Shown: piece by piece, positions 33,312 through 43,050 of the stretch
How the letters are laid out: each line of letters opens with the position of its first letter
Numbering within the stretch: the stretch's first letter is position 1
NCBI GenBank assembly: GCA_017514345.1
Contig: JAFWKC010000096.1
Span: 1-43,233 of the forward strand
Length of the DNA stretch: 43,233 nt
Origin: Eubacterium sp.
Lineage (GTDB): Bacteria; Bacillota; Clostridia; Oscillospirales; Acutalibacteraceae
Reading direction: 5' to 3'
Made by a program: the position numbers and the translations under genes
The notes under the pieces: model-generated
Told to the model about the DNA's origin: nothing
The model's database searches: none
Seen by the model: the letters and a program-made list of their open reading frames with translations, nothing else

Positions 33312-33323
33312 GTGTGGTATAAT
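33295..33323 (+). promoter_or_regulatory. Promoter inside the end of the AAA+ gene
   Basis: TTGCGA (33295-33300) and consensus TATAAT (33318-33323) are 17 nt apart, just before GAGGTGA and the ATG at 33342. The -35 lies in the last codons of the AAA+ gene, so the 238-residue gene can be expressed alone. Confidence 0.6.
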
Positions 33324-33341
33324 AAACACAGAGGTGAGATT

Positions 33342-34058
33342 ATGCAAAATAATGAATTTCGTAATGCATCACGCTTTTTATTGTTTACATATTTTGGCTT
33401 GGATTTTAATGTAGACAAAACTGAAGCTATTAAAAAAGCTATTGATATAGCTTACAATGATGCAACTCTAATGGGAGCGTTCAATACAAAAAAAGATAAA
33501 AATGACAATGGTGAAGATAGAAAGAACAAAGTTGTTAAGGCATTAGAAGACCAAATTGACGATTTTAAAAAGTGGCACTCTGACTTGTGTTCTGATTTAG
33601 AAGACAATGACAAAGGATTCAGCTTTGGAAACGCACAAAAACTTGTCAATATGACAATAAAGAATATGCATATTATTTATTCAGTAATAAATGAGTTTAA
33701 CCCCGATAATAAATTTGTATCATTCTTTAAAGAAAGATTTCTTCCTCATTATAGTGCTTTTCATATTCCCGTAGACGACTATATACTAGAAGCTGCTTGG
33801 GTTCTGGAAAGCGAAAATGATAAAAGAGATAGTAAGATAATTAAATTCCCAATAAAAGATTCTGCTTGTAAAACAAAGTACGGAAAATATAATTCAGAAA
33901 AGATTACTAGGTGGAGTTCTTGGAACGATGAAACATATTATGCTTTTCAAAACTCTTTAAAAGATTTCATTAGAAAGGATAATCCTGAAAAAAGCCCATT
34001 AGACTGGGAATATGACGCATGGATAGCAACAGCAAAAAAAAGAAAAGACCAAAAATAG
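33342..34058 (+). CDS. Unknown helical protein of 238 residues
   Basis: The start at 33342 follows GAGGTGA. The protein is charged and mostly helical: ASRFLLFTYFGLDF at 9-22, a Lys/Asp-rich loop with KKDKNDNGEDRKNK near 50, long helices to about 130, then FFKERFLPHYSAFHIPVDDYILEAAW near 126-151. A Trp-rich end (RWSSWND, SPLDWEYDAWI) closes it. There is no membrane segment and no catalytic motif I know. Its codon use is the most AT-rich of the neighbourhood. Its own promoter lies in the AAA+ gene and its own terminator follows directly, so it is probably a single-gene insertion or cassette. Confidence 0.6.
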   Translation: MQNNEFRNASRFLLFTYFGLDFNVDKTEAIKKAIDIAYNDATLMGAFNTKKDKNDNGEDRKNKVVKALEDQIDDFKKWHSDLCSDLEDNDKGFSFGNAQKLVNMTIKNMHIIYSVINEFNPDNKFVSFFKERFLPHYSAFHIPVDDYILEAAWVLESENDKRDSKIIKFPIKDSACKTKYGKYNSEKITRWSSWNDETYYAFQNSLKDFIRKDNPEKSPLDWEYDAWIATAKKRKDQK

Positions 34059-34060
34059 AG

Positions 34061-34089
34061 AGATGCGTCGGAAACGGCGCATCTTTTCT
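34061..34089 (+). terminator. Terminator with a GAAA tetraloop
   Basis: AGATGCGTCG (34061-34070) and CGGCGCATCT (34075-34084) pair over 10 bp with one T-G pair around GAAA, followed by TTTCTG. The sequence CATCTTTTCTGATATT after it recurs after the phosphatase gene at 34568. Confidence 0.9.
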
Positions 34090-34114
34090 GATATTATATA
34101 TTCAGGTGATGAAT

Positions 34115-34582
34115 ATGAATATCAAAATATTAAGCAGAACGAAAGCGGTTAAGCTGAGCTATACCGATTTTGAAAAAGACAAGGTAATTATTTCAATCAG
34201 GGACCCGTGGGCTGAAAAAGCGCAGTTTAACGATGGTAACAGTTCAATTAAGGAAATACTGTATCTTTCGTTTTACGATATAAGTGAGGAAACAAAGGAT
34301 ATCTTTGACGGTTACAGCTCAATGTCTCCCGATGACGCCCTGAAAATCGCTCACTTTGTCAACAAATGGAAGGATAAGGTTGACACCATTTGGGTACACT
34401 GCGAGGTCGGTGTATCCCGCAGCGCAGGAATCGCAATGGCAATTATGGAATACTTGAACTTGGACTTAGCCCCGATATTTGAAAACCCAATCTATTGCCC
34501 GAACATGCTATGCTATGAATTAACCAATCAGGCATTTAAAAATCAGAGAGTACATACAAAAAATGACGATGCGCCGCTTTAG
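34115..34582 (+). CDS. Dual-specificity/tyrosine phosphatase-like protein
   Basis: The 155 residues contain IWVHCEVGVSRSAGIAMAI near 95-113, the HCxxGxxRS phosphate-binding loop of Cys-based protein phosphatases (Cys nucleophile, Arg for phosphate). The order of parts fits the dual-specificity fold: an N-terminal beta region with KVIISIRDPW near 24-33, an acidic loop DISEETKDIFDGYSS near 58-72 that could carry the general acid, the P-loop, and a short helical end. The start at 34115 follows AGGTGAT. Close relatives in bacteria include phage and element-borne types; the target is unknown. The gene lies between two nearly identical terminator modules, which suggests movement as a cassette. Confidence 0.82.
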   Translation: MNIKILSRTKAVKLSYTDFEKDKVIISIRDPWAEKAQFNDGNSSIKEILYLSFYDISEETKDIFDGYSSMSPDDALKIAHFVNKWKDKVDTIWVHCEVGVSRSAGIAMAIMEYLNLDLAPIFENPIYCPNMLCYELTNQAFKNQRVHTKNDDAPL

Positions 34583-34597
34583 GTGCATCTTTTCTGA
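34568..34597 (+). terminator. Terminator of the phosphatase gene
   Basis: GATGCGCC (34568-34575) and GGTGCATC (34582-34589) form an 8-bp stem with one G-T pair, then TTTTCTGATATT. The left arm lies within the last codons of the gene. It matches the module at 34061-34097. Confidence 0.8.
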
Positions 34598-34614
34598 TAT
34601 TGTATTCTTGGATT

Positions 34615-34830
34615 CGGGAGAGGTCCCGTTTCTTGAATTATTGCGAAGCTTTAATTTACCTGAGGCGTTGCACTATGCCTCGTTAAACAAGAGGTGACCG
34701 TGTCGGACTACGAGACCGAACAGCTCGCCTGAGCCAAATCAGGCAGGCTCCTGTGCCGGAAGTCTTTACGGGAAGCCATGGCACCCCGACCTGCGGCTCG
34801 CTGAACCGCCGCCGCAGGAGGCACAATTTT
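34615..34830 (+). ncRNA. Candidate structured noncoding RNA, about 215 nt
   Basis: This gene-free stretch (34598-34933) is GC-rich inside an AT-rich region and packed with pairings: CGGGA/TCCCG (615-619, 624-628), GAGGC/GCCTC (662-666, 677-681), CCTC/GAGG (678-681, 691-694), and GAGCC/GGCTC (731-735, 746-750). GTGCC/GGCAC (753-757, 780-784) and CTGCGGC/GCCGCAG (791-797, 811-817) follow. A long-range TGCCTC/GAGGCA pair (676-681, 818-823) comes just before ATTTTTATACTTTTG. No open frame covers it. It has many helices rather than the single long hairpin of 6S RNA. An ornate clostridial RNA such as the raiA motif is one candidate, which I cannot confirm. Confidence 0.6.
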
Positions 34831-34884
34831 TATACTTTTGACTAACTCTCAAATCTGAAACGGTTATTAAAGTTATTAATACGC

Positions 34885-34913
34885 TTTACAGAAATGGCAA
34901 AATGTTGTATCAT
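34885..34913 (+). promoter_or_regulatory. Promoter of the UDG-like gene
   Basis: TTTACA (34885-34890) and TATCAT (34908-34913) are 17 nt apart. GAGGTG and the ATG at 34934 follow. Confidence 0.55.
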
Positions 34914-34933
34914 CGAAAATGAGGTGAAAAACT

Positions 34934-35641
34934 ATGAGTATTAAGAATAAGGAAAAAGAACTATTTAAGCGTTGGAAAGAAGAAAGAAATTATCCATATT
35001 TTATTAATGACGGTCTTTTTTGTGAAGAAGTATGGAACGAACAGCAAATAAAGATCCTTTATGTTTTGAAAGAAGCGGATTGGGAAAATGCAGATTTAGA
35101 CTTATGCGAGTTTCTCTTATCTGAAACGAGTCCAACTTACTGGAAAACATGGAACAATATTACCCGTTGGACACAAGCGATTCGTTATGGAGGAAATTAT
35201 CCGGAAAATGTTAGCAGTTCCGACAAGACCGCTTGTTTAAAAACCATAACAGCAATAAACATTAAAAAGGTTGGCGGAGGCGCACAATCTAATGACGAGG
35301 AAATACGTCAGTACGGAGAAAGAGATTCAGAATTCATAAAATGCCAAATTGAGCTTTATCAGCCTGATATTATCATATGCTGTGGACGGGGTAACGGTAA
35401 AAATGCCGATATACTGTACAACTATGTTTTTGACAAAAAGTCCGAATGGCAAACACCAATAAAGAGTTATAGTTTCAAGTATAGTTATAATTGGTATTTA
35501 GCGTTACTTGAATCAGGCAAAACCATTCCCGTCGTTTCTTTCAGACATCCGCAAATTCGTGGAAATCATAAGACTTTTAAAAAGTATTATGATGATATGT
35601 TAGCATTATCAACAGAACTAAAAAATCGCGGCTTGATTTAA
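34934..35641 (+). CDS. Possible uracil-DNA-glycosylase-fold protein, function unproven
   Basis: The 235-residue protein contains IKILYVLKEADWE near 38-50, then TAINIKKVGGGAQSNDEEI near 107-125. After those come FIKCQIELYQPDIIICCGRG near 133-152 and VVSFRHPQIRG near 208-218. This pattern of a first strand ending in a loop, AxINxKK, PDIIIxCG and a late His-Pro recalls the uracil-DNA-glycosylase superfamily fold in loosely related bacterial proteins. The catalytic motif of true UDG is not obvious, so activity on DNA is only a suggestion. GAGGTG precedes the start. The PPP phosphatase gene starts 1 bp after its stop, so both are coupled. Confidence 0.5.
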   Translation: MSIKNKEKELFKRWKEERNYPYFINDGLFCEEVWNEQQIKILYVLKEADWENADLDLCEFLLSETSPTYWKTWNNITRWTQAIRYGGNYPENVSSSDKTACLKTITAINIKKVGGGAQSNDEEIRQYGERDSEFIKCQIELYQPDIIICCGRGNGKNADILYNYVFDKKSEWQTPIKSYSFKYSYNWYLALLESGKTIPVVSFRHPQIRGNHKTFKKYYDDMLALSTELKNRGLI

Positions 35642-35642
35642 T

Positions 35643-36341
35643 ATGACCTATGTAATATCAGACCTGCACGGTTACCCTATTGAAAAACTGAAAATGCTGC
35701 TCAAGAGGGCGAACTTCGGCGAGGATGATTTTCTGTATATCCTCGGTGATGTTGTAGATAGAAACGGCGACGGCGGCGCGAGCATTCTGCTCTGGCTGCT
35801 GGAGCAGTATAACGTTCAGCTCATTCTCGGCAATCACGAGGCAATGCTCCTTTCCTGCGATTTTGTTTTTGACGAGATTACCGAGGACAGCGTTGCGGCG
35901 ATGAATAGCGAAAAGATTGAGTTGCTGAATAACTATATGCTTAACGGCGGCGACGTAACGCTCAAAGCGCTCCGCACTCTGCCGAGAGAAAAGCAGCAGG
36001 ATATTCTCGATTATCTGCGTGACTGTCCGCTTTACGAAGCCGTTACCGCAGGCGGTAGGGATTTTATTCTTGTTCATTCCGGCTTTGACAATTTCAGCAA
36101 AGACAGAAAGCTTTCCGACTATTCAGCAGACGAGTTTATCTGGGCGTGGCCCGAGCTCACGGACGAATACTTTGACGATATTCATACAGTATTCGGTCAC
36201 ACTCCGACTATGAACTACGGCGATGAATACAAAGGTAAAATCATAAAAACGCGGACCTGGACGGATATTGACTGCGGCGCCGCCTACGGCAACGAGTCGA
36301 TTCTCTTACGACTTGATGATTACAAGGAATTCAAATTATAG
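35643..36341 (+). CDS. PPP-type Ser/Thr phosphatase (metallophosphoesterase)
   Basis: The 232 residues carry the metallophosphoesterase signatures in order: DLHG at 7-10, GDVVDRNGDG near 35-44, GNHEAML near 60-66, VHSGF near 142 and FGHTP near 184. This matches the lambda-phosphatase/PrpA-type group that removes phosphate from Ser, Thr or His in proteins, using two metal ions. Related enzymes are carried by phages and gut Clostridia. Its GC is higher than that of the UDG-like gene upstream, although the two are 1 bp apart, which suggests different origins. The Phd-Doc promoter starts directly after its stop codon. Confidence 0.9.
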   Translation: MTYVISDLHGYPIEKLKMLLKRANFGEDDFLYILGDVVDRNGDGGASILLWLLEQYNVQLILGNHEAMLLSCDFVFDEITEDSVAAMNSEKIELLNNYMLNGGDVTLKALRTLPREKQQDILDYLRDCPLYEAVTAGGRDFILVHSGFDNFSKDRKLSDYSADEFIWAWPELTDEYFDDIHTVFGHTPTMNYGDEYKGKIIKTRTWTDIDCGAAYGNESILLRLDDYKEFKL

Positions 36342-36396
36342 TTGACAAATCAAATAATATGTATATAATAAAAGTAGGATATATTTGTCCTACTTT
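36342..36396 (+). promoter_or_regulatory. Phd-Doc promoter and palindromic operator
   Basis: A near-perfect promoter has TTGACA at 36342-36347, a 16-nt spacer and TATAAT at 36364-36369. Immediately after it AAAGTAGGA (36371-36379) and TCCTACTTT (36388-36396) form an inverted repeat over the start site. That is where an autoregulating Phd antitoxin would bind; as RNA it could also form a leader hairpin. Confidence 0.75.
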
Positions 36397-36415
36397 TTAT
36401 AATGGAGATGATAAA

Positions 36416-36661
36416 ATGTTAATTGACACCAACACTATGTTTTCTATGACGCAGGCAAATCAGAACTTCTCTGCTGTTGCAAGGTCTGTTGACAGAAACG
36501 GCGAAGCAGTTGTTCTGAAAAACAATAAACCGAAATATCTTGTTGTTGATATGGAAAACGAGGATTTCATTCTTGATTTAACGGATGATGAGAAAATTGA
36601 CATCGTTGCAAAACGTGTTCTTCAAAGATACCTTCCTGCGTTTAAGGAGCTGGCAAAATGA
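36416..36661 (+). CDS. Phd/YefM-family antitoxin
   Basis: The 81 residues begin MLIDTNTMFSMTQANQNFSA, followed by VARSVDRNGEAVVLKNNKPKYLVVDM. This is the Phd/YefM N-terminal DNA-binding fold, in which an SxTxARxNFS-like segment is followed by PxxxLV. The C-terminal 30 residues are the flexible toxin-binding tail. GGAG precedes the ATG at 36416; the longer frame to 36359 runs through the operator. It should repress its own promoter and neutralise the Doc protein, whose gene starts inside its stop codon. Confidence 0.9.
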   Translation: MLIDTNTMFSMTQANQNFSAVARSVDRNGEAVVLKNNKPKYLVVDMENEDFILDLTDDEKIDIVAKRVLQRYLPAFKELAK

Positions 36662-37035
36662 TTAAATTCAGTAAAGAGAAAATACTGCTTTTACATCAGG
36701 TAATGGCGGAGGCAACCGGCGGAGATATCGGCGTGCGTGATGAAGCGTTGCTTGAATCGGCGATTGAAACAATCTATTCCACCTTTGACGGCGTTGAGCT
36801 GTATCCTACAAAAGAAGAAAAAGCGGCAAAGCTCGGCTACTCCCTGATTTCAAATCACGCCTTTGTTGATGGCAACAAGCGAATCGGAATGTATATTATG
36901 ATATCCTTCCTTGAACTCAACGGAATTAAGGTTGATGCAACAAACGATGAGGTTTACAAGCTCGGAATGGCGGTTGCGGACGGCTCTGCAGACAATGATG
37001 ATATCCTGAAATGGATAAATGAACACAAAATCTAA
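36658..37035 (+). CDS. Doc-type toxin (Fic fold)
   Basis: Doc toxins phosphorylate elongation factor Tu and block translation. The 125 residues include GGDIGVRDEALLESAI near 21-36 and the Fic signature HAFVDGNKRIG near 63-73, which fits the Doc form HxFxDANKR with Gly for Ala. The tail GSADNDDILKWI is also typical of Doc. The start overlaps the antitoxin stop (ATGA), coupling toxin to antitoxin. A terminator follows 12 nt later. The pair probably stabilises the mobile region. Confidence 0.93.
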   Translation: MIKFSKEKILLLHQVMAEATGGDIGVRDEALLESAIETIYSTFDGVELYPTKEEKAAKLGYSLISNHAFVDGNKRIGMYIMISFLELNGIKVDATNDEVYKLGMAVADGSADNDDILKWINEHKI

Positions 37036-37047
37036 TACAACTTTATT

Positions 37048-37078
37048 GCCCACGGAGAAATTCGTGGGCTTTATTTTT
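37048..37078 (+). terminator. Terminator of Phd-Doc
   Basis: GCCCACG (37048-37054) and CGTGGGC (37063-37069) pair perfectly, followed by TTTATTTTTT. Confidence 0.9.
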
Positions 37079-37247
37079 TAATAAAGATTTTTGACTTTAA
37101 TTTGGATTTTTCTCGATTATTATATATGAACGGCAATTTAATATGGAGTTATTTTGTCCCATTAGAAATGTTAATCTGTGTTTGAAAGGAAAAGAACATA
37201 AATAATTTGAATTAAACCGACTAAACAGTGTTTATCAAACGGTTATT

Positions 37248-37276
37248 ATTAAGGATTAGTAGCTTTAATCCTTAAT
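37248..37276 (+). promoter_or_regulatory. Leader hairpin before the lipoprotein gene
   Basis: ATTAAGGATTA (37248-37258) and TAATCCTTAAT (37266-37276) form a perfect 11-bp stem with no T tail, 6 nt before the GGAAGGAGGG ribosome site. It may stabilise the message or bind a repressor. The rest of 37079-37297 shows no gene. Confidence 0.5.
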
Positions 37277-37297
37277 GCATATGGAAGGAGGGATATA

Positions 37298-37660
37298 ATG
37301 AAAAAATCAAAGGTATGGCTTTGCGTTTTATTAATCGTTTTAGCGGCAATGCTGGTGTTTTCGGGATGTTCTAAATCGGAATATGATGAAAACGATTACG
37401 AAACCGAGGAAACCACAGCGGCAACAGTAGAAACAACACAAGCTACAGCCAGGTATAACCACGTTGCTATTCAAAACTGTGTTGTCAACAAGCAGGACGG
37501 CTCGCCTGATTTTGAATACTATTACAAGTGCGATGCGTGCGGGTATATGGGCGACTGGCCGAAAACTGCAAGCTCAACGGGCGATAGTGTTGCAGATAGC
37601 TTTTTCTGCGACACATGCAATGACTGGAAAATGGTATATATTGATACCTACCCTCAGTAA
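37298..37660 (+). CDS. Small lipoprotein with a zinc-ribbon-like Cys pattern
   Basis: The 120 residues start with a lipoprotein signal; the lipobox VFSGC places the modified Cys at 24. An acidic Thr-rich linker (EETTAATVETTQAT) should hold the rest away from the membrane. Two CxxC pairs, CDACGYMGDWP near 75 and CDTCNDWKM near 101, suggest a zinc ribbon or disulfide-held outer domain. The family is not recognised. The ribosome site GGAAGGAGGG is very strong. It ends 72 nt before the retron RNA and is closed by its own terminator, so it is probably independent of the retron. Confidence 0.75.
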   Translation: MKKSKVWLCVLLIVLAAMLVFSGCSKSEYDENDYETEETTAATVETTQATARYNHVAIQNCVVNKQDGSPDFEYYYKCDACGYMGDWPKTASSTGDSVADSFFCDTCNDWKMVYIDTYPQ

Positions 37661-37673
37661 ATAAATATTGAAG

Positions 37674-37695
37674 CAGCCCCTTGTGGGCTGTTTTT
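37674..37695 (+). terminator. Terminator of the lipoprotein gene
   Basis: CAGCCC (37674-37679) and GGGCTG (37685-37690) form the stem, followed by TTTTTG. Confidence 0.82.
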
Positions 37696-37731
37696 GTGCC
37701 ACAGCATATGATACTTTATTCTTGAAGGAGG

Positions 37732-37869
37732 CAGTCGGCGGCAGAAGATTGAAATGACGTGTTTTCGTTTCAGGCGAGTGCGAGTCGTGCTCGTTAAATA
37801 AAAGTCCAACAAAGCGATGAACATTAGCATTGCTTCGCAATGCAAACTATACTCAGGTGCCGCCGGCTG
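37732..37869 (+). ncRNA. Candidate retron msr-msd RNA with a1/a2 inverted repeats
   Basis: CAGTCGGCGGCA (37732-37743) pairs with TGCCGCCGGCTG (37858-37869) over 12 bp with one G-T pair, as a1 and a2 of a retron do. The right arm ends 8 nt before the ATG of a retron-type reverse transcriptase. Between the arms are three hairpins: TGAAA/TTTCA (37750-37772), an imperfect GAG/CTC stem (37775-37791), and the perfect GCATTGC-TTC-GCAATGC (37828-37844). The last could be the msd stem copied into DNA. I cannot assign the branching G or the msd ends by eye. The pairing next to an RT of the right type is strong circumstantial evidence. Confidence 0.7.
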
Positions 37870-37877
37870 TTAATATT

Positions 37878-39458
37878 ATGAAATTACAGATTGAAGATTT
37901 TGAAAATGTAAAAGTAGATATAAAGGAGTTTATTGAATATATTATGCCAAGCAATAAACAATCCATGAATAAACTTGCAAGAATTCTATATCCCGACAGC
38001 AACGAAAAGGATTATGATTCTTTAACCAATTATCTTTACGTAATGCTTGACGGTATTGAAAAAGATTACGAAGAATTCACGATAAAAAAGAAAAACGGAA
38101 AACTGAGAACTATCAGCAAGCCCAACGAAGCACTTGCCGATATCCAAAAGCGTATATATGAATACATTTTAAGAAATGCTCCTGTTTCACCTTGCGCGGC
38201 AGCGTATGTTAAAGGCAAATCAATTCGCGATGCAACAGCCAAACATATCGGTCAGCCCATACTGATAAAGATAGATGTAAAAGACTTCTTTTACAATATA
38301 TTTTTTGATTCGGTAAACGATGCTTTTACCAATCTTGGCTTTGATAAGTATCAGGCAATTACGCTTGCAAATTTTTGCTGCTATAAAGGCAGCTTACCGC
38401 AAGGCACATCAACTTCTCCAATGCTTTCAAACTTGGTTTTCAGAGATTTTGACGATGAAATGGAAAAGCTTTGCTTAAAGTACAATATCAGGTATACAAG
38501 ATACAGCGATGATATGCTGTTTTCCGGTAGCTTTGATAATGAGTTTGATACAAAGCGTTTTGTGCCTTATGTTAAGTTTATGCTTGAGGATTTCGGCTTT
38601 CAGATGAACTTAAGCAAAACAAAGATTATAAAGCAGGGACAGCGCCAAACTGCTCTCGGCGTAGTTCTTAACGAAAAGCAACAGGTTACAAAAGAATATC
38701 GTAAGCAGATAAGACAGGAAATTCATTATTGCTCGGAGCATTCAGTAAAATCTCATCTTGAACATATTCAAGATGAGAGATTTCTGCTCCCAAACGGCGA
38801 GCCTGACTATATCGGATATATTGATAATCTTAACGGCAGAATAAACTTTGCTCTGCAGATTAACCCCGATGACATGGAAATGGTATCCTACAAAAACTCG
38901 TTAAAATCCTTATCGTCTTCAATGTACCAAGCCAAAGTTGTTGAGCAGAATCAGCTTATGGAATGCTTATACAAGGTGTTTTCCGATTATGTCAACAGCA
39001 AAATAAAATATACAATACTGTATAAAAAACTACTTGAATACGGTTTTAGTAATTCTCAATTAAGCAAAATAGGAATTTATGAAGAAAAAATAGTGTATGG
39101 ATTTGACGAGGTGTATTTAACAAAAGATGATAAAGGAAACTATTTGTCATTGATTACCAAACACAGTTGCAGTGAGCACTTAGGAAATGTAATAATTAAT
39201 CCTTATTGCGATGGATTCTTCGGAAGCAGGTTTGATAAGAACCTCGGTTATCTGACCGTTACATCGGATAAAATCGCCGCAGTTACAAGCGGGCTTACCA
39301 ACTATGTTTCCTTCAACAACGCACCGAGCAAGTTTTTCCTCTCAAAGAAAAAGCTTGAAATGATACGGAAATATGGCAACAAAGTAGTTGTTGCCGATTG
39401 CTCGGGAGCGGAATACATACGCCTTCAGATGATAGCAAATCATATTGAAGTAATTTAA
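37878..39458 (+). CDS. Retron-type reverse transcriptase with a C-terminal extension
   Basis: Retron RTs copy part of their own RNA into a DNA branch, and most act in anti-phage defence. From the ATG at 37878 there are 526 residues; the frame upstream (TTG at 37830) runs through the msd hairpin and a2 and is not coding. RT motifs are KIDVKDFF at 131-138, LPQGTSTSP at 173-181, the catalytic YSDD at 209-212, and TALGVVLN at 258-265. YRKQIRQEIHYC at 274-285 matches the post-motif helix of retron RTs. Residues 346-526 exceed the usual retron RT and show no known motif; they may be a fused effector. A DnaB-like ATPase gene follows after 14 bp. Confidence 0.88.
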   Translation: MKLQIEDFENVKVDIKEFIEYIMPSNKQSMNKLARILYPDSNEKDYDSLTNYLYVMLDGIEKDYEEFTIKKKNGKLRTISKPNEALADIQKRIYEYILRNAPVSPCAAAYVKGKSIRDATAKHIGQPILIKIDVKDFFYNIFFDSVNDAFTNLGFDKYQAITLANFCCYKGSLPQGTSTSPMLSNLVFRDFDDEMEKLCLKYNIRYTRYSDDMLFSGSFDNEFDTKRFVPYVKFMLEDFGFQMNLSKTKIIKQGQRQTALGVVLNEKQQVTKEYRKQIRQEIHYCSEHSVKSHLEHIQDERFLLPNGEPDYIGYIDNLNGRINFALQINPDDMEMVSYKNSLKSLSSSMYQAKVVEQNQLMECLYKVFSDYVNSKIKYTILYKKLLEYGFSNSQLSKIGIYEEKIVYGFDEVYLTKDDKGNYLSLITKHSCSEHLGNVIINPYCDGFFGSRFDKNLGYLTVTSDKIAAVTSGLTNYVSFNNAPSKFFLSKKKLEMIRKYGNKVVVADCSGAEYIRLQMIANHIEVI

Positions 39459-39472
39459 GCGGAGGTATAAAA

Positions 39473-40165
39473 ATGGAAAACAACGCTACTATTACAGGAA
39501 TAACAAAGTTGGATGAAATACTTGACGGCGAACTAAAAAAAGGTGCTTTATATCTGATTGCATCACAGCCCAATTACGGAAAAACAAGCTTTGCAATACA
39601 GACAGCTGCAAGTATTGCCGAAAGCGAAAAGAAGGTGTTTTTCTGTTCGCTTGGAATGATAAAAGAGCAGATAAAAGACCGTTTAGCAAAGCAAGGAAAA
39701 GAAAATGTGTCAATCGTAATTGAAGACAGAAGTGGCATAACCCCTTGTGAAATAAAAGAGATGCTTATTGCTCAAAATGCAGAAGTTGCAATTATTGATT
39801 ATTTGGGGCTTATTTATATTGATGGAAAATTCGAAAACAGACGTCAAGAAATAACAGAAATAACCCGTCAACTAAAAGTTATTGCAAAAGAACTTCAAAT
39901 ACCTATAATTTGCCTATCTCAATTATCCAGAAGAGCGATGTTTGTAAGAGGAAAAGGGCATATTCCACGTCCCAAATTACCGGAAGATTTGCGCGTGTTC
40001 GGTAGTATTGAACAGGATTGCGATGTAATAATATTTCTACACAGAGAAGAAGATGCAACGGATAGCAACGTGGAAATAATAGTTGCCAGAAACCGTTATG
40101 GACAATGCGGAACTATAGAAGCAACGTTTGATAAAGAAAGACTATTATTCACAGAAAAAGAGTAA
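39473..40165 (+). CDS. Stand-alone DnaB-C-like RecA-fold ATPase
   Basis: This is the C-terminal motor domain of DnaB replicative helicase without the N-terminal domain. In 230 residues the motifs are Walker A SQPNYGKTS at 31-39, Walker B IIDYLGL at 107-113, SQLSRR at 149-154, LRVFGSIEQDCDVIIFLHRE at 173-192, and ARNRYGQCGT at 205-214 with the finger region. These are the DnaB signatures in the right order, shortened in the middle. GGAGG precedes the ATG, and the gene lies 14 bp after the RT gene in the same direction. It could be the retron partner or a replication or remodelling factor of the element. DNA unwinding by itself is uncertain, since ring assembly normally needs the missing domain. 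Confidence 0.85.
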   Translation: MENNATITGITKLDEILDGELKKGALYLIASQPNYGKTSFAIQTAASIAESEKKVFFCSLGMIKEQIKDRLAKQGKENVSIVIEDRSGITPCEIKEMLIAQNAEVAIIDYLGLIYIDGKFENRRQEITEITRQLKVIAKELQIPIICLSQLSRRAMFVRGKGHIPRPKLPEDLRVFGSIEQDCDVIIFLHREEDATDSNVEIIVARNRYGQCGTIEATFDKERLLFTEKE

Positions 40166-40170
40166 GCTTG

Positions 40171-40204
40171 AGCGGGTGGGTGATTTTAATCCCACCCGCT
40201 TTTG
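40171..40204 (+). terminator. Terminator closing the RT-ATPase unit
   Basis: AGCGGGTGGG (40171-40180) and CCCACCCGCT (40191-40200) form a perfect 10-bp stem followed by TTTG. The RT and ATPase genes therefore share one transcript end and are separated from the helicase. Confidence 0.88.
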
Positions 40205-40230
40205 TACAATCCGATTAAGGCGGTGAGAAT

Positions 40231-43050
40231 TTGAAGGACAAGCAAATAAGGAAAATCCTAATTGAATATTTGAAAGCAAGTAACTCTCGAATTAGAATAT
40301 TTCAGGAGAAAAGTATTGGCTCATCAATTTGTGATGTTATGACGGTTACAGATTGCCTTACCGGATATGAGATAAAAAGCGACTCGGATAATTATCAGCG
40401 CTTTGAATCGCAACAAAATTCTTATGACAGATTCTTTGATAAAAACTATATTGTTGTTGGTGAAAGTCATATTAAATCCGCAGAAAACAAGGTGCCTTCT
40501 CACTGGGGTATCGTTTGTATAAAAAGCAATAATATTGAGGTTATAAGAACTGCAAGAAAGAATCAGGATGTTAGAAGAAGGTCACAGCTTTCTGTGCTTT
40601 GGAAACTGGAACTGAAAAACTTGCTTATTATTAACAGTATGCCGCTATTTGCTCAAAAGGACAAAGGCTATATATCCGACAGAATTGCCGAAATAGTTGA
40701 CAGCGATACCCTTGGAAAGCAGATTGCAAACGAGCTTTTTAACAGGGATTACTCTACATACGAAGCGGAAGATTACACAATCAAGCAGGACAATCCTATA
40801 GTAACAAATCTTCCGGAAGCGGAAATTGTTGACAGCCTTTCGGAAGAAAATCTTACTGAATACACACTTGACCAGTGGATTGCACTTTATCATAGAGCGC
40901 AGATTGTTAGAGAAAAGAAAACTTTTGATTACGATAAGCAACTTGTTAAACGCACGGAGCATAATATCAAGTATACCGACATTACGCCAACGCTCGGTGC
41001 GCCCTGGATTTCGGAAGGCATTATTAATGAGTTTATTCAGTACTTATATGGAGAAGACGAATATAGACGGACATATCGTAAGCCGTATGCAAGAAGGGAG
41101 CCAATTACAGGAAGCTGGAATGTTTCCGAAAAGAAAGCTGACTCTACTTCATACAATACAAACATGACAAACACTTTTGGTACAAATCGTTTCAATGCGC
41201 TTCAGATATTGGAATCAACTTTGAACCTTCGTGAAATAAAAATCCACGACGCTACTGTTTTTAATCAAAAGGAAACGGTTGCGGCTCTTGAAAAGCAAAG
41301 AGTAATTGTTGAAGAATTTAATGAATGGGTGTGGAAAAGCGATGACAGAATATGGGAAATTGAAGAAGCGTATAACAAACTTTTCGACGGCTTTGAAAAA
41401 ACGTCTTATGACGGAAGCAAACTTGTATTTCCAGAAATGAATCCCAATTTTGAGCTTTATGATTACCAGAAGGATGCAGTACAAAAGATAATAACAACAA
41501 ATAATACACTCCTTGCTTTTGATGTTGGGGCAGGCAAAACATACATTATGATTGCCGCTGCAATGAAGCTCCGCGAAATGGGCGTTTCAAGGAAGAATAT
41601 GTTTGTTGTTCCTAACAATATTGTTGGTCAGTGGGAGAAAATCTTTACAGATCTGTATCCAAAAGCAAAGGTTTTAACAATTGAACCCAAAACGTTTAAA
41701 CTCAATATGCGAACCAAGGCGCTTGAACAGATGCGCGATGGTGATTACGATGGAATAATCATTGCTTACAGTTGTTTTGAAATGATACCGCTTTCGGTTG
41801 ATTATGTTAACCAGGAGCTGACGCGTAAAGTAAGAGTGATTGAAAACGCAATCGGTGAAATGCGGAGCAATTGGGAAACATGGGGCTCTTCGGCTCTTGA
41901 AAGAGAGAAAACCTACATTAAAAAAACTGTCTTTGATTTGATAGACAGTGTAAACTATGAATATCAGGGTATAACTTTTGATGAGCTTGAGGTTAACACT
42001 CTCTTTCTTGATGAGGCACACAACTATAAAAATATACCAATAAGAACTGCTCTGAAAAACTTGAACGGTATCAACACGAAGGGCTCTTTGAAATGTCTTG
42101 ATATGCAGAAAAAGATTAAATGCGTTCAGGATAATAACGGAGGCAGAGGGGCTGTACTTGCAACAGGAACGCCTCTTTGTAATTCTATTTCGGATGCATA
42201 TGCCATGCAGCTATATCTCCAACCGGATGAAATGAAGAAAAGAGAACTTGACAGATTTGACAACTGGGTAAAGACCTTTGCAATGCCTGAACAGCTTTGC
42301 GAAATTGATGTTGATACATCAAAATTCAGGATGGTTCGACGTTTTGTAAAATTCTTTAATCTGCCCGAGCTGTCGAAAATGTTTTCTCAGGTTGCTATAT
42401 TCCATGCGGTTGAGCCAAGGGACCTTCCCGATTTTAACGGCTACAATGATATAGTTATAAAGAAAAACCCCGCATTGTCGGCATATATGCTTTCGTTAAG
42501 TGAAAGAGCCGATTTGATTCGTGATAAAGCCGTGGACAAGCATACTGATAATATGCTTAAAGTAAGTACAGACGGAAGAAAAGCTGCACTTGATTTAAAC
42601 CTTGTAAGATGTGAACAGGCGTATGATGATTATTCAAAGGTATACCGCTGCGCAAAACAGGTTTATGAAGTATACAAATCAGATAAAACGTGTTCGCAGT
42701 TGATATTCTGCGATTACTCTACTCCCAAAACCGATGAGTTCGATGTATATAATAAGGTCAAAGAACTATTAATGTCCTTCGGTGTTATAGAAAATGAAAT
42801 AGCCTTTATTCATTCCTACACAACCGAGACAAGAAAACTAAAGTTGTATGAAGCCGTAAACAATGCTAAAATCAAAATCCTTATCGGCTCAACATTCAAA
42901 CTCGGTATAGGTGCAAATGTTCAAACAAAACTTAAAGCAATTCATCATCTTGACGCACCATGGAGACCTGCAGATGTAGGACGGATTTTGCGGACATTCA
43001 AAATAAAAAAGAATGTGGAGGTAACAGACAATGGCAAAGACAATTTTTGA
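40231..43050 (+). CDS. Nuclease-like (sce7726-type) plus SNF2 helicase fusion, C-terminally truncated
   Basis: The start is TTG at 40231 after GGTGAGA. Residues 1-100 look like the sce7726/MmcB group of PD-(D/E)xK nuclease-like domains, with Asp35 and the GYEIKSDSD segment (Glu47, Lys49). Residues 400-930 form an SNF2/superfamily-2 helicase: FELYDYQKDAV near 408, Walker A DVGAGKT at 431-437, LDEAH at 593-597, ATGTPLCNS at 644-652, and GIGANVQTKLKAIHHLDAPW near 900. It then reads RPADVGRILRTF and stops, where full-length relatives continue into the QxxGRxxRxGQ motif VI. The last codons overlap the tnpV start. The motor is probably inactive or altered. Confidence 0.85.
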   Translation: MKDKQIRKILIEYLKASNSRIRIFQEKSIGSSICDVMTVTDCLTGYEIKSDSDNYQRFESQQNSYDRFFDKNYIVVGESHIKSAENKVPSHWGIVCIKSNNIEVIRTARKNQDVRRRSQLSVLWKLELKNLLIINSMPLFAQKDKGYISDRIAEIVDSDTLGKQIANELFNRDYSTYEAEDYTIKQDNPIVTNLPEAEIVDSLSEENLTEYTLDQWIALYHRAQIVREKKTFDYDKQLVKRTEHNIKYTDITPTLGAPWISEGIINEFIQYLYGEDEYRRTYRKPYARREPITGSWNVSEKKADSTSYNTNMTNTFGTNRFNALQILESTLNLREIKIHDATVFNQKETVAALEKQRVIVEEFNEWVWKSDDRIWEIEEAYNKLFDGFEKTSYDGSKLVFPEMNPNFELYDYQKDAVQKIITTNNTLLAFDVGAGKTYIMIAAAMKLREMGVSRKNMFVVPNNIVGQWEKIFTDLYPKAKVLTIEPKTFKLNMRTKALEQMRDGDYDGIIIAYSCFEMIPLSVDYVNQELTRKVRVIENAIGEMRSNWETWGSSALEREKTYIKKTVFDLIDSVNYEYQGITFDELEVNTLFLDEAHNYKNIPIRTALKNLNGINTKGSLKCLDMQKKIKCVQDNNGGRGAVLATGTPLCNSISDAYAMQLYLQPDEMKKRELDRFDNWVKTFAMPEQLCEIDVDTSKFRMVRRFVKFFNLPELSKMFSQVAIFHAVEPRDLPDFNGYNDIVIKKNPALSAYMLSLSERADLIRDKAVDKHTDNMLKVSTDGRKAALDLNLVRCEQAYDDYSKVYRCAKQVYEVYKSDKTCSQLIFCDYSTPKTDEFDVYNKVKELLMSFGVIENEIAFIHSYTTETRKLKLYEAVNNAKIKILIGSTFKLGIGANVQTKLKAIHHLDAPWRPADVGRILRTFKIKKNVEVTDNGKDNF

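Follow-up and report, generated by a model that had tools for sequence, protein, structure and literature searches.

The analysed window, a stretch of 43,233 nt from a Eubacterium sp. assembly, carries a retron. According to Pfam and NCBIfam, the genes around it encode, in order, a metallophosphatase, a dual-specificity phosphatase, a Doc toxin-antitoxin pair, a lipoprotein, the retron itself, a DnaB motor domain and an SNF2/sce7726 protein. The PhdYefM/Doc pair occupies positions 36359-37035, 0.7 kb before the retron. The span 37732-39458 given for the retron in a preliminary description is correct. Its boundaries stand, but some 190 C-terminal residues inside it are not reverse transcriptase (RT) sequence and had been overlooked; neither this domain nor the displaced Shine-Dalgarno (SD) sequence considered below was mentioned there. 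The features are listed in the table.

Table. Features of the retron locus (window coordinates)
Feature	Position	Strand	Evidence
AAGGAGG, SD-like, directly 5' of a1; putative upstream half of a split ribosome binding site for the RT gene	37725..37731	+	anti-SD duplex energy
a1 arm (core 37732-37743)	37730..37743	+	inverted repeat, fold, a1/a2 scan
Candidate branch-point guanosine: G37744 (first base past a1) or G37747 (invariant AG column, alignment A4)	37744..37747	+	position and invariant columns A17 G18
msr hairpin 1, 8 bp	37750..37772	+	fold; both-sided changes in 3 of 8 pairs when window and G025 are compared
msr hairpin 2 with invariant GCGAGTCG (37780-37787)	37773..37795	+	alignment of relatives and covariation
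Presumed msd template, with 7-bp hairpin 37827-37843	37796..37857	+	fold
a2 arm (core 37858-37869)	37858..37871	+	inverted repeat, fold, a1/a2 scan
Retron-type RT domain, residues 1 to ~345, with YSDD and LPQGTSTSP	37878..38912	+	PADLOC, Pfam RVT_1, tree
C-terminal extension (residues 337-526), degenerate, DnaG-primase-core-like; aligned stretch 39006-39398	38886..39455	+	hhalign against DnaGs
Stand-alone DnaB C-terminal motor domain, 230 aa, 14 nt past the RT stop	39473..40165	+	Pfam DnaB_C, 4.1e-49

The RT gene starts at the ATG 37878 and encodes 526 amino acids, in which both motifs reported earlier, YSDD and LPQGTSTSP, were found. The best of the 62 PADLOC families is RT_Ec107-like (1e-95, 318.6 bits, residues 42-344); RT_III-A gives 2e-92, and Pfam RVT_1 matches at 3.2e-22. 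The NCBIfam model retron_St85_RT yields 202.6 bits (7.5e-60), under the model cut-off of 235, versus 55.3 bits (5.7e-15) for the group II model. The profiles do not bear out the opinion that without its RNA the protein could be taken for an ordinary RT of the group II kind. Among sequence matches in PDB, retron RTs rank first, and group II and other RTs score far lower. The RT part itself extends to about residue 345, where fusion-free relatives stop. No other RT was found by Pfam RVT_1 over the assembly of the window (2.0 Mb, 147 contigs). The sole full-length relative found is a protein with 44% identity from G025, a genome of the same genus. Retron RTs have motifs named NAxxH and VTG. The former is altered in both proteins, to DATAKH in the window and to STAVH in G025, while N[AT]..H is matched by 14 of the 15 other RTs listed; the latter is ALG in the window and VTG in G025.

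In the RT tree (32 rows), the window and G025 proteins form a pair with support 100/99. This pair falls within a group of 19 clostridial retron-type RTs (80/83, unstarred), apart from the Ec67 pair. Placement with group II or DGR enzymes, named in the preliminary description as an argument against a retron, was not observed, the window RT grouping with retron-type RTs. The rows resembling group II and related RTs (L009-L011, L013 and L014), labelled by eye, lie across a deep branch with support of only 84/77, and the long-branched retron RT L104 is beside them. The outgroup-like row L012, its identity again judged by eye, sits on the side of the window, and the programme issued a long-branch warning. 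The tree fits the retron reading, but is no proof of it, and the RNA weighs more.

The inverted repeat reported directly before the RT gene is present. Its arms, 37732-37743 and 37858-37869, are 12 nt long, complementary at 11 of 12 positions (92%) and separated by 114 nt. Folding of 37724-37877 extends them to an a1/a2 stem of 14 pairs (37730-37743 with 37858-37871) with outer G-U pairs, and reproduces the three enclosed hairpins, including the perfect 7-bp stem. The 8-nt gap claimed between the repeat and the gene also holds, the repeat ending at 37869 and the ATG occupying 37878-37880. The fold has an energy of -55 kcal/mol (z -4.80), and none of 200 shuffles is as stable. In a scan for a1/a2 pairing upstream of the RT start the window scores 33.4, versus a shuffle maximum of 28.6 (n=60). 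Retron priming occurs from a guanosine placed like the candidates in the table. By analogy with retron anatomy, the segment 37796-37857 would serve as the msd template. Promoter and terminator scans gave little above shuffles.

The RNA of G025 can be aligned with that of the window over its whole length, and compensatory changes are present. Seven pairs are changed on both sides, which is reached by 1 of 500 shuffles, the structure being derived from the same two sequences. Close RT homologues lacking a1/a2 pairing had been named as another possible argument against a retron; however, G025, the sole close homologue, has a 10-bp a1/a2 stem at the same place. In 11 of the 20 retron-type loci scanned, among them the window, no more than 1 of 60 shuffles equals the a1/a2 stem. 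Weak cases are G025 itself (9 of 60 shuffles) and L026 (50 of 60).

The second msr hairpin is conserved at larger distances. The GCGAGTCG hairpin is invariant in all 15 aligned clostridial relatives; L100 has no GCGAGTCG, as judged by eye. The helix is 95.6% paired, with 30 cells changed on both sides versus 11.3 in shuffles, none of 500 shuffles reaching 30. In these 15 clostridial retron RNAs (alignments A4 and A5) the hairpin has an AGT loop. This invariant hairpin may define an undescribed family of retron RNAs; no retron family of Rfam was found in the window. The RNA of the window is short, 142 nt versus 165-201 nt in most relatives and 143 nt in L003. Relatives with unclear arms (L005, L022, L024, L026) were dropped from the RNA-length comparison, the GCGAGTCG alignment and the SD comparison, and L100 was also left out of the GCGAGTCG alignment; L023 and L027 are nearly identical to each other.

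A covariance model (R2) was built from 13 relatives, window and G025 excluded. It locates the RNA correctly, in front of the RT, at five further sites (L029 twice, L026, L005, L024) with E from 3e-8 to 0.02. One of the five is the RNA of the G025 fusion retron itself (21 bits, E 0.02); L022 is weak (E 0.31). In the window, however, the RNA is only the second-best match (37734-37811, 12.5 bits, E 0.52 over 43 kb, all model pairs standard), the best one lying elsewhere, at 628-703 (E 0.36). Another model, R1, consists of the two fusion retrons only, and its matches to both prove nothing. G025 contains a second, broken retron about 4 kb before the fusion retron (L029:6631-7758), with an RNA scoring 47.3 bits with R2 and an interrupted RT frame. 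The RT profiles, the RT tree and the conserved RNA all support the original retron reading, and the locus is a real retron.

The placement of the SD sequence is unusual. No SD-like sequence was found in the 20 nt before the ATG, either in the window (-1.7 kcal/mol) or in G025 (+0.4 kcal/mol). The anti-SD duplex energy of the region 37710-37731, immediately before the RNA, is -11.5 kcal/mol, and 7 of 4000 random 22-mers from the window are as low. In G025 there is AAAGGAG at the same place before a1, with -8.9 kcal/mol (80 of 4000 random 22-mers as low). Of the 14 fusion-free relatives, 12 have an SD sequence at -6.7 or lower between a2 and the ATG, and none has an energy below -2.9 before a1 (for L028 a start other than ATG was used). 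Across the 16 loci compared, an SD sequence before a1 with a start codon after a2 is confined to the two fusion retrons, an arrangement noted after the fact. Four other retrons, L098, L102, L103 and L104, have no strong SD in the 20 nt before the RT.

When a1 and a2 are paired, the distance from SD to AUG is about 8 nt in the window and 14 nt in G025. Thus the stem could bridge the SD and the start codon, making a split ribosome site. On the other hand, the predicted fold leaves the AUG and part of the SD half paired. An alternative is that translation starts at M23 (37944), which has AAAGGAG 15 nt upstream. This start is possible; however, conserved residues K16, E17 and I22 precede M23, favouring the ATG 37878. 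According to PMC3014915, the distance from SD to AUG in T4 genes 38 and 25 is shortened by an intervening RNA structure. The bridging of a distant SD is similar to what is proposed here, but 22-27 nt are bridged there and a whole retron RNA of about 140 nt in the window. No report linking retron msr and the Shine-Dalgarno sequence was found in the literature on the two. If the a1/a2 stem indeed completes the ribosome site, the template RNA would control the amount of its own RT that is made.

The C-terminal extension is intact in the window and in G025, with 34% identity between the two. Profile scans of 391 class, 80 genus, 398 phylum and 398 family genomes (partly overlapping sets, with E up to 0.01 admitted in the phylum scan) gave homologues in these two only. 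The other matches were a DnaG (G804), a methyltransferase-like ORF (G836) and weak ones in G956 and G962, which we take as chance. A search of genome contigs gave one RT-only locus. No relatives were found in the viral contigs scanned, and of the matches in 45 phage and 188 plasmid records none covers over 80% of the query. Pfam, PHROGs, PADLOC and PDB sequences yielded no DnaG match, only weak unrelated ones.

The profile of the two extensions picks DnaG in one genome (9.2e-4). Aligned by hhalign with 29 DnaGs of the class, it scores 51.0 (90.3%, P 1.5e-6), with 127 columns aligned collinearly. By comparison, 150 column shuffles reach 27.7 at most. Of 196 protein pieces used as single sequences, the fusion of G025 itself is the highest at 40.5 and the next is 31.5; pieces from the window are absent from the best 15 of 196. 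The match is carried by the G025 extension, which alone scores 53.0, the window one alone being weak (19.9, P 0.06); BLASTP against DnaGs gives 2.2e-4 and 0.021, respectively. The first half of the domain is significant by itself (37.2 versus 20.8 in shuffles), and the Toprim-side half is not (26.9 versus 27.7 for the best of 60 shuffles). The resemblance to DnaG is supported by these comparisons, and the extension is probably, though by no means surely, of DnaG-core origin.

It is also conceivable that the retron carries an unrelated domain, the DnaG match being a chance likeness of a short helical motif. Indeed, the half-domain and single-sequence scores are weak, no library match was found, and the methyltransferase-like ORF of G836 matches the same first half at 1.2e-5, better than DnaG does. 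However, the score lies far outside those of shuffles and other proteins, and the second half is collinear, which makes chance likeness a somewhat unlikely explanation.

The catalytic residues E277, D321 and D323, present in 29 of 29 DnaG rows, correspond to T, C and G in the window and to L, E and G in G025 (alignment read by eye). Since neither protein retains the aligned residues, it is unlikely that they act as primases or Toprim nucleases. A Toprim domain of the Ec67 type was considered for the extension and rejected, as the C-termini of two Ec67-family members do not match it and the catalytic E and DxD are missing.

Retron types differ chiefly by effector. The closest known systems are Ec107-like (type III-A) retrons, which consist of a phosphoribosyltransferase (PRTase), a DNA-binding protein, the ncRNA and the RT; the usual order PRTase, small protein, RT is observed in L100 (Vagococcus). 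The window retron has the same RT family and the a1/a2 RNA directly before the RT, but it has the C-terminal fusion and no adjacent PRTase gene: Pfam and NCBIfam found neither PRTase nor DNA-binding partner genes among the ten proteins at 33312-43050. The clostridial relatives scanned are, as judged by eye, mostly an RT with its RNA and no evident shared partner gene. Ec67/Eco2 (type I-C, RT-Toprim) also combines a retron RT with a C-terminal domain in a single protein, and Toprim is part of the DnaG core as well. However, it lies on a separate branch of the tree, and according to PMC12405507 it has a Toprim of the OLD-like kind whose E/DxD site is intact and which works as an RNase. Retron-Sda1 is described in PMC12548924 as having type III-A1 RNA and RT with HipA/DUF3037 instead of PRTase. 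It is similar in the swapped effector of a type III RT, but there the effectors are separate genes, whereas here the domain is fused to the RT. This retron provides a precedent for the swapping of effectors by type III RTs (PMC12548924).

The window retron is a variant with a fused primase-like extension, and it presumably acts against phages. The reading we favour, with about even confidence in it as a whole, is that of a working clostridial retron of the Ec107/III-A kind whose RT is fused to a dead binding module derived from the DnaG core, which replaces the PRTase and has a presumed antiphage role. The RNA 37730-37871 would fold through a1/a2, and the RT would copy the msd into branched msDNA. 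The C-terminal domain, with the catalytic residues lost, would be neither a primase nor a Toprim nuclease, but most likely a module that binds single-stranded DNA, a helicase or some other component of the replisome. It would take the place of the PRTase effector of type III-A retrons and tie the msDNA complex to replication, presumably in defence. By fusing an RT with a catalytically worn domain of primase origin, such a retron would link msDNA to DNA replication in a manner that we have not found described. Among the papers listed on retrons with primase, DnaG or DnaB/helicase, none was described as dealing with an RT-DnaG fusion, nor did one appear in the accessible parts of PMC8934634 and PMC8867640, and the novelty is claimed within this scope.

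The DnaB_C gene next to the RT is a possible partner. Genes for the metallophosphatase (or its remnant), DnaB_C and the phosphatase recur around G025, G048, G052 and G055, and those for the metallophosphatase and phosphatase in G046, without DnaB_C in the stretch examined; as this set recurs, the site looks like an accessory-gene hotspot. Retrons occur at it in the window, in G025 and in G046 (L007, with the RT directly before the metallophosphatase). In G052, L095:4131-7064 (minus strand) encodes a protein of 977 aa in which PHP, DNA polymerase III alpha and finger parts are joined to a DnaB_C motor. Within the genus, nothing matches the window protein 39473-40165 better than this DnaB part (44%).

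The effector could be the DnaB_C ATPase, the RT with its primase-like domain holding the motor and freeing it upon infection. Both genes are on the same strand, 14 nt apart. Short DnaB_C frames exist in 5 of 80 genomes of the genus (G000, G025, G048, G055, G824), both fusion genomes included, the 177-aa frame of G824 resembling a piece of housekeeping DnaB, and a protein similar to PHP/PolIII-alpha is fused to DnaB_C at the same hotspot in G052. However, the G025 gene is on the opposite strand and looks broken, with the match spread over two frames, and G048 and G055 carry DnaB_C without a retron match to the window RT. A single hotspot by the metallophosphatase gene may account for the linkage, and we consider an effector role of DnaB_C quite unlikely.

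A decaying orphan retron, with the extension as a recent accidental fusion without function, is more improbable still. It would agree with the presence of the extension in two genomes only, the altered retron motifs and the other, clearly broken retron 4 kb away in G025. On the other hand, the two proteins, 44% identical, are encoded by uninterrupted frames of 526 and 525 aa, and their RNA covaries, so both fusion retrons have been maintained over a long time. The view that the locus is no retron, but a group II, DGR or other RT preceded by a hairpin, has nothing in its favour except the weak group II profile score and is hardly conceivable, group II and DGR identity being ruled out by the profiles and the tree, and the RNA being contrary as well.

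A combined mechanism may also be considered, although we regard it as unlikely in its entirety. Paired a1/a2 would join the SD and the AUG, so that the fusion protein would be made only from folded, uncut RNA. The dead primase core would then read or block the replisome, in a hotspot shared with other worn replication proteins, the DnaB motor and the PolIII-alpha-like fusion.

Traces of rearrangement were observed at the metallophosphatase gene. In G025 it is reduced to the first 16 codons, just before the retron. In G052 the region L095:7846-7899 duplicates the final 54 nt of this gene, with 91% identity to window positions 36287-36340, as if cassettes entered at its 3' end.
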